DNA of 64,000 nt, taken from positions 1 through 64,000 of the forward strand of contig JAKQDR010000226.1 in the NCBI GenBank assembly GCA_029573715.1. The letters are read 5' to 3'. The translations under genes were made by a program, and so were the position numbers. Below are positions 48,199 to 52,149 of the stretch, piece after piece. A model generated the notes under the pieces. That model did not search any database. It worked only from the letters and a program-made list of their open reading frames with translations, and was not told the origin of the DNA. Source of the DNA: a bacterium (GTDB lineage Bacteria > Patescibacteriota > Microgenomatia > UBA1406 > GWC2-37-13). Positions within the stretch are counted from its first letter, which is position 1. Every line of letters starts with the position of its first letter.

Positions 48199-49923
48199 CT
48201 ATTGAGTCTGAGACAAAATATAGACATGATATTGATCATTTTCGTATGCCACCGGCAATTTGTATTTGGTTGGTTTGATTGTCACCGCATATGTAGCATC
48301 ATACTTTTTTCCGATACGGACCAAATCTTCAGTAGTGAGGCTTCGATAGGCATCTGCGGTGAGGGCTAAATTGACATAAAAATTTCTATTGAATTTCTCG
48401 AGCGCGCCGGGTGCCACATCTGCAAACCGCTCTTTCCAATAGGGGATATACCCCGGGTCAAACGCAGCCTCCAAAAGTTCAGAAATGGTTGAAACGCTTG
48501 AACGCTCCGAAAGCACGCGCCATTCCACATCATAAAGCCAAAACATATGTGGCGGAGTGATGAAGATGGCGTTTTTTGGGGTATTGTCTTTTGCCCATCG
48601 TTGCACTTGGTTAAACGCATTGTCAGGTGGATAGATGTACACGCCGGGCCGCCACAGTGCAAAATGGTAAGCGAGTGCCAGCGCATATGCGTATACCCCA
48701 ACAAATACAATGACAAGCGGGCGCACGTCACGAAGCCGAGTAACATAATTTCGAAGCCAATAGGCGAGCAGGAGTAAAAATGGAGTGAAAGAAAAAATGA
48801 GAATAAGAAACCATAGAGATGCGGTGTGTCGGGTGGGTGAATTTCTCATGCGCTCAGCCACAAATGCGCACGCATACACGTAACAAAATACCATCAAAAA
48901 TACTCCTACGCGCGTGATTTGTGCTTGGATAATGAGTGCTGAAGGGGTAATGTATGTGGCAATCAGTTGCACGCACAGAATGAGCATGCCTGCAAACATA
49001 AAATGGCGCACCGATGTGTCGATGTCTGTGATTTTGTCTTGTGTGTGTCGCTCACGAATAAAAAGAAATGTGAGCACTATGGTGGCAATACCTCCAAGGG
49101 TGATAAGCGGAATATATATCGCCTCAAAACTTATGAAATGAAACAAATGCGCAAAGACTCCTCTGTCTAAGATGTCAAACCATTCCCAATTAGCTGCAAT
49201 TCCCCCGCTTGGTTTGCTCAGCCGCCATATAAGCACCGGTGATGCAAAAAGCGTAAAGAGGATTCCGTGCTTAATGATATTTCTCCAGCCGAAGTCTTTC
49301 ACACGGAGCACCAAATCAAGCATAATCATCGCCATCACAAAATTTACCGAGATGACATGAATATTAAATAGCAATCCAAGCAATATCATCGCCCGATATG
49401 TTTTTTTCTTAAAGTACCAGCTGAGCGCAAATAGCTCAAATGGCAGAGCGAACGTTCTGTTAAGCAGGCTAAACTCCAAAAATGGAAACCCGGAAAATCC
49501 GAAATGAGGAAATAGCATCGCACACACGGAAAGAAAAGAAACCAGCGTGTCACGAAACATTGTATGTGTAAGTGTCCACACTCCCCAAAACGTAAGGTAA
49601 ACGACTCCCACATGCACCACAAAAAGTGCAATCTCAAGTAAACCCGCCTGATACAACGGAGTGAAAAACTGCCAAAAGAAAGAGTAGTGAGTGAGGCGCA
49701 AATCAAAATATCGGTCATTCGGATAGAGTGTTGGGTCTACAGATTGCTTTAAAAAAGGGATGTGGCTTACTTGGTCAAATGTTCCTACGTAGTAGCCGTA
49801 CAGCATCACAGCGACAGCGGTTAAGAATGCGAAAAGTAGGTGTTTGTGATACGGTTTGGCATCAAGCGCATGAACGAGAGAGAGTAAGTTATGGGTGAAT
49901 GATGCGCGCATAAGGGACACCAT
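48199..49923 (-). CDS. Polytopic membrane protein, glycosyltransferase-C-like
   Basis: 574 aa, ~10+ TM, large C-terminal extracytoplasmic domain. Confidence 0.6.
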   Translation of the reverse strand: MVSLMRASFTHNLLSLVHALDAKPYHKHLLFAFLTAVAVMLYGYYVGTFDQVSHIPFLKQSVDPTLYPNDRYFDLRLTHYSFFWQFFTPLYQAGLLEIALFVVHVGVVYLTFWGVWTLTHTMFRDTLVSFLSVCAMLFPHFGFSGFPFLEFSLLNRTFALPFELFALSWYFKKKTYRAMILLGLLFNIHVISVNFVMAMIMLDLVLRVKDFGWRNIIKHGILFTLFASPVLIWRLSKPSGGIAANWEWFDILDRGVFAHLFHFISFEAIYIPLITLGGIATIVLTFLFIRERHTQDKITDIDTSVRHFMFAGMLILCVQLIATYITPSALIIQAQITRVGVFLMVFCYVYACAFVAERMRNSPTRHTASLWFLILIFSFTPFLLLLAYWLRNYVTRLRDVRPLVIVFVGVYAYALALAYHFALWRPGVYIYPPDNAFNQVQRWAKDNTPKNAIFITPPHMFWLYDVEWRVLSERSSVSTISELLEAAFDPGYIPYWKERFADVAPGALEKFNRNFYVNLALTADAYRSLTTEDLVRIGKKYDATYAVTIKPTKYKLPVAYENDQYHVYILSQTQ

Positions 49924-50076
49924 TGTACCAATTATTGGTAATAAATAGTCGATAAACGCCCTTTCCCCAAATTATCCACATAGAATGTATTAAAAATTAT
50001 GGGTTGGTGCAACAATCTAAATCACTAATACAATAATATAGGTTGTCTTATAGTACACACGAAATAAAATATAGGC

Positions 50077-50105
50077 TTGACAAGTGAAAAAAGAGGGTCT
50101 ACAAT
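50077..50105 (+). promoter_or_regulatory. Promoter of candidate sRNA-1
   Basis: TTGACA (50077-50082), 17-nt spacer, TACAAT (50100-50105). Confidence 0.8.
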
Positions 50106-50111
50106 CTTCAT

Positions 50112-50214
50112 CAGATAAACCGCTCAATTGGGGACGAGTAAGGTTTAGGAAATTGGTTGTAGGAAGAGCATTGTTGAGCTTGTCAAAATTTGACGAGCGA
50201 CGATGCTCTTTTTT
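50112..50214 (+). ncRNA. Candidate small RNA 1 (~103 nt)
   Basis: Strong promoter; 5' hairpin TAAACC-G-CTC[AATTGGGGAC]GAG-TAA-GGTTTA; long terminator hairpin AAGAGCATTGTT...GCGACGATGCTCTT followed by T-tract; no convincing ORF. Confidence 0.7.
50164..50214 (+). terminator. Intrinsic terminator of sRNA-1
   Basis: AAGAGCAT...ATGCTCTT with internal GCTTGTCAAA/TTTGACGAGC stem and TTTTTT. Confidence 0.8.
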
Positions 50215-50473
50215 GTATCTTGGGCCCACCCGACTTGTTTTTGTGTGGCGAGCCAAGCACTGATCACGCGAAAAGGTGTGGCAGTGTGTCGTTTTGCACA
50301 GTGGCTGAGAGTAGTATCACCAAATATAAACACACCATGTTTTTGTTTATGTTTGATTCTCGCATTCAGATCGTTGCTTCAAGCTAGTGAGCAGTTTTTA
50401 TTTTTTTTGAGAGGTTGGAGTTATGCTGCGTGATGATGGGGATGAGTATGAAATCTCGTGACTAGAACCCAAC

Positions 50474-50557
50474 AAAAAAGAGCATCATTACCGCTCGTAA
50501 ATTGGGGACGACGAGTAATAATGCTCTTTCTTATATCGATATCTTTCCGTATCGATA
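50474..50557 (-). ncRNA. Candidate small RNA 2 (~84 nt), partly complementary to sRNA-1
   Basis: 5' hairpin TATCGAT-10 nt-ATCGATA (50534-50557), then terminator hairpin with loop CGTCCCCAATTT and U-tract 50474-50479. The loop complements 50126-50136. Confidence 0.7.
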
Positions 50558-50563
50558 GTGCAC

Positions 50564-50592
50564 ATCGTATCAGCCGTTTTTCTGTGTGTCAA
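50564..50592 (-). promoter_or_regulatory. Promoter of candidate sRNA-2
   Basis: Reverse strand TTGACA (50592-50587), 17-nt spacer, TACGAT (50569-50564). Confidence 0.75.
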
Positions 50593-50631: not shown

Positions 50632-52149
50632 TTATGCTTTACGTGCTGCATCACCAATAATGCCCGACATCATTTGAAACAGTGCAAAAATACCCATGAG
50701 TGCGATGTCTTGGCCGTGTTCTTGCAAGAATTTCGTGAGCCATGCTTGTGCTCGTGCTGTCTGTTCAGGATTAAGTCCGCCCATAATATGCTTGAAGGCT
50801 TTTCCGGCAAGACATTTATCATCTTGCCAATCATGCTCTTTCAGAAATGCCCAAGGGTCTTTTGCTTCTAGCATTTGATTGGTGAACCACTGAGCGTCTG
50901 CCATATCAACATCTCCAGCAACCACAGCATCAAGATATCGGCGATATAAAGAATCAGTTTCACCACTCTGGAAACTGCGCAAACTCTTGAGTGAGTTTTC
51001 AAGCTCAGTAGTATCTTTACCTGCTTTTCTTTGTTCTGCAATTCGTAATTCGAGATCCCCTGCTTTGCGTTGAAGACCGGGAAGAGCAGCCATACGAAGT
51101 ACTTCTTGTAGTTGAGCACCCGTTGGCTGGAGTCCGCTTTCTAGCGCTTGTCTTATGGCGCTTATATCTTGCTCAAACTTCTCCATTTCTTTTGGACTAC
51201 CACCCCATTGATCCGATCGGATGTAATCGAGCATATTTTGAGCAAAGGTGTCTGCGGTTACTGCAGAAACAGCAGTAACTTCCAGGGCTTCTCGGAGCAC
51301 TTTGTCAGCAATTCCATCTGTAATGTCTAAGTTCTCATTCCCATATGGTTTGGTAGGAGTTATGCTACTTACATATCTTTCACATGCGTTTACTGCTTCT
51401 TTTAAGGCAGGGTTGGTATTCTCGTTACTACTTGCCTTCAGATCTGCATACTGTGTTAAGACTAATAATTCTGTTGCCTGTTGCATGGGGAGCGCAATAT
51501 CAAGCACAGGATTGCCCGCACTATCAGTGCCTGAGAAGTGTACAAGCGGTAAGTCATTTGGCCCCTTGGGGCCTTGTGTTTTACCACGAAATGTTTTGAG
51601 CTCAATGACGCCGGGTGGCAATCCGGAAGGGGTATTTGGCATGCGCTCACTTCGTTTGTCGTATGCGAGTGCATACGAGCCGTCGGCAAGAGCGCGTACT
51701 CGAGGCAAGGGATGGTTTGGGCCAAACCATGGACTCTCAGGATCATCTTTGAGATGAATACCCACGGAAGGTTCTTCCAATACGCCGTCTTCACACAGCA
51801 GTCCAATTACTGAAAGTGGGACACTCTCAGGACCTCGGTCATTTCTGAAAGCGTCCTTCCCGAGTGACTTTATGATTGCATAGAGTGCTTGACGTCTTTG
51901 TTCGGGCGACGCTGGCGGCCTCTCGCGAGATTCAGATCGCGGTTGTGCGTCTGGCCGTTGATTGCCATCAAACCCCCCAGACTGACCTGACACGAGTCCA
52001 GGTTGCACATCTGGCGGACTCATGGGCCCCGGTGCTTGTTCAGCTGGGGTGGTTGCCGGCGGTGGCAACTCAGCTACACCAGCCATAAATGCATTCCTTG
52101 CATCTGCGGCATCGAATGCCGGTGCTGGCGGATTTTCAGATTCTGTCAT
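50632..52149 (-). CDS. Hypothetical helical protein with Pro-rich N-terminus
   Basis: 505 aa, good coding continuity; C-terminal hydrophobic stretch. Confidence 0.65.
   Translation of the reverse strand: MTESENPPAPAFDAADARNAFMAGVAELPPPATTPAEQAPGPMSPPDVQPGLVSGQSGGFDGNQRPDAQPRSESRERPPASPEQRRQALYAIIKSLGKDAFRNDRGPESVPLSVIGLLCEDGVLEEPSVGIHLKDDPESPWFGPNHPLPRVRALADGSYALAYDKRSERMPNTPSGLPPGVIELKTFRGKTQGPKGPNDLPLVHFSGTDSAGNPVLDIALPMQQATELLVLTQYADLKASSNENTNPALKEAVNACERYVSSITPTKPYGNENLDITDGIADKVLREALEVTAVSAVTADTFAQNMLDYIRSDQWGGSPKEMEKFEQDISAIRQALESGLQPTGAQLQEVLRMAALPGLQRKAGDLELRIAEQRKAGKDTTELENSLKSLRSFQSGETDSLYRRYLDAVVAGDVDMADAQWFTNQMLEAKDPWAFLKEHDWQDDKCLAGKAFKHIMGGLNPEQTARAQAWLTKFLQEHGQDIALMGIFALFQMMSGIIGDAARKA

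Follow-up and report, generated by a model that had tools for sequence, protein, structure and literature searches.

A conserved small-RNA family with a putatively antisense terminator loop in Microgenomatia

The convergent locus

The window is the whole 64,000-nt stretch of contig JAKQDR010000226.1 that was analysed, from a Woesebacteria-type CPR bacterium of the class Microgenomatia (genome G000). Between the genes of a 505-aa protein and a 574-aa membrane protein, it carries two candidate small RNAs, here RNA-1 and sRNA-2, that would be transcribed toward each other (Table 1). The gene of the 505-aa protein adjoins the RNA in this genus, and most of the family has the gene of a different membrane protein in its place. 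An earlier sequence-only reading of the window had proposed a promoter and a strong intrinsic terminator for each RNA. Both promoters are found where that reading placed them, both terminator stems and their T6 tracts are present, and 0 of 200 dinucleotide shuffles fold as well as the original in the case of either RNA.

Table 1. Positions of genes, promoters and predicted RNA elements at the locus, in window coordinates.
Feature	Position	Strand	Remarks
574-aa membrane protein	48199-49923	-	DUF6798 match
Convergent promoter of RNA-1	50070-50105	+	conserved TATAGG box, then TTGACA-17-TACAAT
Core of convergent promoter	50077-50105	+	TTGACA-17-TACAAT
RNA-1, predicted convergent short RNA, ~103 nt	50112-50214	+	folding z=-4.95
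RNA-1 5′ hairpin	50116-50147	+	exposes AAUUGGGGAC; from folding; kept in G001
RNA-1 site AATTGGGGACGA	50126-50137	+	exact complement of sRNA-2 loop; 43 nt past -35 box
RNA-1 terminator	50166-50214	+	stem 50166-50208, T6 50209-50214
sRNA-2, predicted transcript, ~84 nt	50474-50557	-	folding z=-7.25; covariance matches in relatives
sRNA-2 conserved hairpin, intrinsic terminator	50480-50526	-	T6 at 50474-50479
sRNA-2 loop region UCGUCCCCAAUU	50500-50511	-	exact 12-nt complement of RNA-1 site
sRNA-2 5′ hairpin	50534-50557	-	UAUCGAUA...UAUCGAUA; lineage-specific
sRNA-2 promoter	50592-50564	-	TTGACA-17-TACGAT
505-aa protein	50632-52149	-	no Pfam/NCBIfam match

The loops of the RNA-1 5′ hairpin and the sRNA-2 terminator hairpin had been described as complementary over 11 nt. 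The match is exact and in fact runs to 12 nt, a length reached by 0 of 5000 pairs of dinucleotide-shuffled RNAs. Both loops are predicted to be open, and the predicted loop-loop duplex has 8 bp at about -11.5 kcal/mol. The extension of the match across two gaps is likewise real, and arises because the two places form direct repeats on the + strand, CCGCTC-[GTA]-AATTGGGGACG-[ACG]-AGTAA. Repeat analysis shows that the copying goes beyond the loop: the apical half of the second hairpin is partly reproduced in the first. The two RNAs share a further stretch at their ends, in that the last 15 nt of the RNA-1 terminator (GATGCTCTTTTTTGT) are 100% identical to the 3′ end of sRNA-2 as an inverted repeat. 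Because of this identity and a weak score of the sRNA-2 covariance model (31.2 bits, 50158-50215 on the + strand), the RNA-1 terminator may be an inverted, diverged copy of the sRNA-2 hairpin.

A second genome of the same genus (G001; JAGOLU010000001.1, Candidatus Woesebacteria bacterium) contains the same hairpin pair with identical loops, both promoters and the same flanking genes, the two copies being 104 nt apart. The outer stem of its first hairpin differs from that of the window by two paired double changes that keep the pairing (AAACC/GGUUU versus AUUCC/GGAAU), and in the predicted ensemble the occupancy of this stem is only about one half. The terminator that RNA-1 has of its own in the window is absent from G001. 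The first hairpin is known only from these two members of a single genus. The earlier view of the locus as two convergent RNAs with loops able to pair is supported by the predicted open loops and by the complement kept in G001.

A small-RNA family conserved across the class

No match above the gathering score was obtained with Rfam 15 in the window and 20 class loci, in agreement with the earlier impression that no known RNA family fits. Judged by comparison of its sequence and predicted fold with those of relatives, sRNA-2 is a member of a previously uncatalogued small-RNA family that is absent from Rfam. A pattern search located the - strand hairpin alone in other genera, and a family covariance model, built from six sequences, matches in 64 of the 73 genomes of the window's family, including 44 of the 45 good ones. 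The RNA is nearly always single in these genomes, and most of the weaker second matches come from reading the same palindrome on the opposite strand. A class-level covariance model finds the RNA in 203 of 289 class genomes (175 of 245 good ones), usually in single copy; about 29% of the good genomes have no match at the threshold applied, and the model E-values are rough. When the class-level model was run on a sample of the phylum, 26 of 33 class members matched, as against 0 of about 356 genomes from other classes. At one locus (L070, genome G003), a partial tandem copy of the apical 3′ half of the RNA (GTCCCCCAATATGAGCGGTGATTATAG) lies directly past the terminator and resembles a young repeat.

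The sRNA-2 hairpin has a characteristic architecture, with a GAGCAUURCUA stem followed by a bulge, an invariant CG/CG step, a further bulge, and a variable apical stem and loop. The parts that are constant in the class are GCAUU...AUGC and the CG/CG step with one bulge flanking it on each side, and both GCAUU and CG/CG are invariant among 40 diverse sequences. Above the CG/CG step the apical stem covaries (UGG/CCA, UAG/CUA, UCG/CGA, UAC/GUA). In the family, six pairs show double-sided changes compared to 0.8 in shuffled alignments, and in the class 98.8% of cells are paired, with 60 double-sided changed cells versus 20.1 shuffled. Within the window's family the stem is near-invariant and the loop varies freely. 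The C-rich UCCCC loop of the window, suggested earlier as a trans-acting element that pairs with SD sites, is not invariant there, as UUGCC, AACC and even GGAGGGG occur.

A TTGAC -35 element, a spacer of exactly 17 nt and a TA-type -10 element are found upstream of sRNA-2 in 63 of 64 family loci, where 12% of random 130-nt windows match the same promoter score. The -10 element ends either 6-12 nt or 30-57 nt ahead of the stem, so near to it that in many loci the predicted RNA would consist of hardly more than the hairpin. Outside the window's family, a 5′ hairpin usually precedes the conserved one, with a CUGYYC loop in 24 of 40 loci versus 10% of random windows. Loops of this kind are seen in L172, L186, L189, L191 and other loci, and that of L186 has its complement in the 5′ UTR of the facing ORF. 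A clean T tract follows the hairpin on the - strand even where the + strand is without one, and in some genomes the + strand has a T-rich tail as well. The RNA was also considered as a leader or riboswitch for a gene further along the - strand, and this was rejected because no such gene follows in the family and the facing ORF comes next.

The facing transcript and its small ORF

The transcript that faces sRNA-2 would also be driven by a conserved promoter, since 58 of 64 family loci, those of G000 and G001 included, have TATAG[GA]N(1-3)TTGACA on the facing strand. In most genomes examined, this promoter drives an ORF of about 50 aa with the C-terminus (K)xLxxPVxLYHL or KGLSIPVFTL. The protein has no match in Pfam, NCBIfam, PHROG or to Fst. 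The AlphaFold model (mean pLDDT 72) has a single helix predicted with confidence, at residues 28-49, and its N-terminus is loose; the conserved part of the protein is this C-terminal helix and the tail. On inspection, the proteins of the window's family are charged and without a membrane-spanning stretch; some of the ~50-aa proteins have a short hydrophobic N-terminus. The gene often closes a cluster of S1-like, RadA and PIN-domain genes (L176, L198, L250, L253).

A profile of the small ORF has no match in G000 or G001; four further family genomes do have one, located at the RNA. By this comparison of predicted ORFs, RNA-1 stands in the place of the ~50-aa ORF of related genomes. The facing unit looks non-coding only in the window's genus and in family f8.

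Complementarity between the terminator loop and the facing transcript

In at least six families of the class, the terminator loop of the RNA is exactly complementary, over 8-21 nt, to the convergent transcript, and the sites vary from genome to genome yet fit the local loop. When second copies of the apical part were sought around each locus without guidance, most matches lay downstream and were oriented so as to render the facing transcript complementary. Among class representatives, which are the best model matches of their families, the native loop ranked at the floor against shuffled loops in 9 of 28 testable cases (KS p=4e-4), as it did in G000 and G001. In the predicted orientation, 20 of 82 loci have an exact match of at least 11 nt; the three control combinations of orientation and side give 0, 2 and 2. 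A chance origin of the complementarity is rejected by the shuffled pairs, the loop ranks and these orientation controls. Complementarity of the 5′ leader of the sRNA, as opposed to its terminator loop, to the facing transcript was weak, with 7 of 43 loci at rank ≤0.05.

Five families of the class pass the significance cut for repeats, and f2 adds one site that overlaps an AUG. In an enlarged set, a site is present in 11 of 21 loci of f9, 7 of 13 of f25, 3 of 3 of f22, 2 of 3 of f5 and 1 of 11 of f8, the sequences in the first four of these families differing for the most part. Many of the sites lie where the action of an antisense RNA would be expected. The site of G137 covers the SD (GUCUUGGGAGAG, 5 nt ahead of the AUG), that of G123 covers both SD and AUG, and that of G042 covers the AUG with 8 nt exact. 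The f9 sites fall within codons about 3-15 and have matches of 10-21 nt, all different; coding constraint may contribute here, since part of the match encodes a common GLG peptide. Elsewhere, G106 has three tandem 3′ sites and the f5 site lies in the loop of the facing terminator; sites at the 5′ end of the transcript also occur.

These results bear on the original idea of antisense or kissing pairing, for which the retention of loop complementarity in homologous loci had been named as a check. In several families an exact complement persists in the facing transcript as the loop sequence changes, so the idea gains support from the class comparison. It gains none from the window's family outside its genus, where the loop is without complementarity to the facing transcript in 58 testable loci, and many other families of the class (f10, f14, f19, f31, f36 and others) have no site in the enlarged set. 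Because the stem of the family is near-invariant even without a facing site, it must have a role beyond pairing, perhaps with a protein or with other targets. The proposal that the partner is itself a small RNA holds for the window's genus and f8; elsewhere the partner is usually the mRNA of the ~50-aa protein.

Copies in mobile elements

Broad scans of genome and viral collections with DNA patterns returned mostly unrelated coding matches, and a BLAST match in G010 (L006) was rejected as a coding coincidence. Two genomes of the window's family have a copy in a phage-like element, at L131 (G062:C31, about 668-750) and L132 (G011:C3, about 2050-2130). Here a 30-nt complement of the loop and 3′ arm of the conserved RNA lies between two ORFs, near a gene for an M23/LysM endolysin-type protein. 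Past it stands a small hairpin, one base pair of which is kept by a double change (GAGCAUAUUUGCUC versus GAGUAUUUACUC). The 30-nt sequence is complementary to the RNA of G011 itself with one mismatch, and to that of G062 in the arms only. Also, an IMG/VR contig (L232, 2140-2190) carries a copy of the hairpin with a T tract and a preceding CCUGCC hairpin, in the direction opposite to the surrounding genes.

Proposed mechanism and alternatives

The RNA family, its structure, promoter and distribution, and the complementarity of its loop all come from sequence comparison; from these we infer transcription, pairing in the cell and an effect on translation or RNA level. The conserved sRNA is probably an antisense switch. 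The reading that we favor, and hold with fair though not high confidence, is that sRNA-2 pairs with the facing transcript, so as to repress it across the class and to enter into mutual titration in the window. sRNA-2 would kiss the facing RNA through the loop of its terminator hairpin, the target site often being itself a hairpin loop. Where this pairing covers the SD, the start codon or the earliest codons, it would block translation of the ~50-aa protein or lead to decay of its mRNA. In the window's genus the ORF would have been lost, with RNA-1 keeping the site and having a terminator of its own, such that RNA-1 and sRNA-2 would act as mutually titrating antisense RNAs and RNA-1 as the antagonist of sRNA-2. 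The sequence-only reading had cast RNA-1 as a decoy; the class data fit regulation of the convergent transcript by sRNA-2 at least as well as that direction. A wider scenario is offered tentatively, as one that we consider possible but would not expect to hold. It would make the locus a core antisense module of the whole CPR class, in which the loop of a universal structured sRNA co-evolves with its site in the gene of the facing small protein, the partner has been reduced to an antagonist RNA in some lineages such as that of the window, and mobile elements counter with complementary copies (L131, L132).

The 58 family loci that have no facing complementarity also sit well with a different account, in which sRNA-2 is mainly a protein-binding RNA whose protein recognizes the stem with its CG/CG step and the C-rich loop. 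The repeats of the facing transcript would in this case have arisen incidentally through local duplication, or would add a second level of control. Conservation of the stem sequence far beyond the needs of pairing alone argues for this account, as does the family loop, which varies freely where the stem does not. However, by-products of duplication would not stay exactly complementary as the loops drift, as they do in f9, f22 and f25, nor would they sit on an SD or AUG, and no candidate protein has been identified; we regard this account as unlikely, if deserving of some weight. We rate as rather improbable a type I toxin-antitoxin locus like par(pAD1), with the ~50-aa protein as toxin, sRNA-2 as antitoxin and a decayed copy in the window. 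Such a locus would explain the convergent promoters with a hairpin terminator between them, the direct repeats read in opposite directions, the sites over the translation start and the short hydrophobic N-terminus of some of the small proteins. It is opposed by the lack of any match of the protein to Fst, Pfam, NCBIfam or PHROG, and by the charged proteins of the window's family, which have no membrane span and conserve a C-terminal helix and tail. Furthermore, addiction modules do not usually occur as a single copy that keeps the same chromosomal position throughout a class.

Two further explanations would dispense with a regulatory RNA. A hairpin between convergent units can terminate both, and the T-rich + strand tail of some genomes is in keeping with a conserved bidirectional terminator whose loop similarity is due to chance. 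Terminator sequences are not conserved over a class, however, and a dedicated promoter in 63 of 64 loci, a good T tract on the - strand only in several genomes, and loop matches beyond chance make this very improbable. A DNA site (dif, attachment or replication element) would account for a palindromic, usually single-copy sequence with conserved arms and a variable center, and for the degenerate copy inside a phage-like element (L131, L132). This we find scarcely credible: the G-U pairs, the strand-specific T tract and the promoter all indicate an RNA, and the locus lies about 9-20% of the genome from dnaA rather than at the terminus, a position on which a dif or terminus element was rejected.

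Significance

No conserved regulatory small RNA of this CPR class is described in Rfam or in the open-access literature that was searched, which covers the field in part. An RNA kept in about 70-98% of genomes, having a consensus promoter and a loop that shifts along with its target, would make RNA regulation in strongly reduced genomes open to concrete tests. The pairs of loop and target are in effect natural compensatory mutants, and thus make the pairing hypothesis directly testable. The ~50-aa protein family, which is uncharacterized, is also worth study.

Comparison with known systems

6S RNA, like the family of sRNA-2, is a widespread structured small RNA. An analogy with it was rejected: sRNA-2 is too short and without a promoter-like bubble, and the Rfam 6S model, at limited sensitivity, found nothing in 12 of these genomes. 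Certain Gram-positive sRNAs with a UCCC motif expose a C-rich loop that pairs with G-rich initiation regions, and a C-rich loop is exposed in sRNA-2 with the possibility of similar pairing. The C-rich loop is here common rather than invariant, and no sequence relationship was found. In the copy-control pairs ColE1 RNA I/RNA II and R1 CopA/CopT, RNAs from opposite strands kiss through complementary hairpin loops, and the RNAs described here have complementary hairpin loops and opposite strands in common with them. The antisense RNA of those plasmids overlaps its target on the same DNA, whereas here the matching sequence is a separate repeat that diverges, and there is no replicon.

In par(pAD1), the convergent RNA I and RNA II have a terminator in common, the start site is masked, and direct repeats are read in opposite directions (PMC7472228). 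The present locus resembles it in having convergent promoters for two RNAs with a hairpin terminator between them, oppositely transcribed direct repeats, and a small regulatory RNA of tens of nucleotides. Complementarity over the SD or start codon of a small ORF is also shared (G042, G123, G137), although the window is without the ORF, and a loop-loop start of pairing is plausible. As regards a common terminator of the par type, the hairpin is common to both units, a good T tract is consistent on the sRNA strand only, and RNA-1 of the window has a terminator of its own. The locus differs from par(pAD1) in that the loop of the regulator's own terminator would pair with the 5′ or start region of the mRNA, and in that the stem sequence is kept across the class, usually in one chromosomal copy. 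The protein is also not Fst-like, and some lineages have lost the ORF, leaving a facing transcript of non-coding appearance. For want of an Fst-like toxin, the locus is not filed among par(pAD1) members. In its presumed working, the locus is closest to RNA I/RNA II of par(pAD1), minus the Fst-like toxin.
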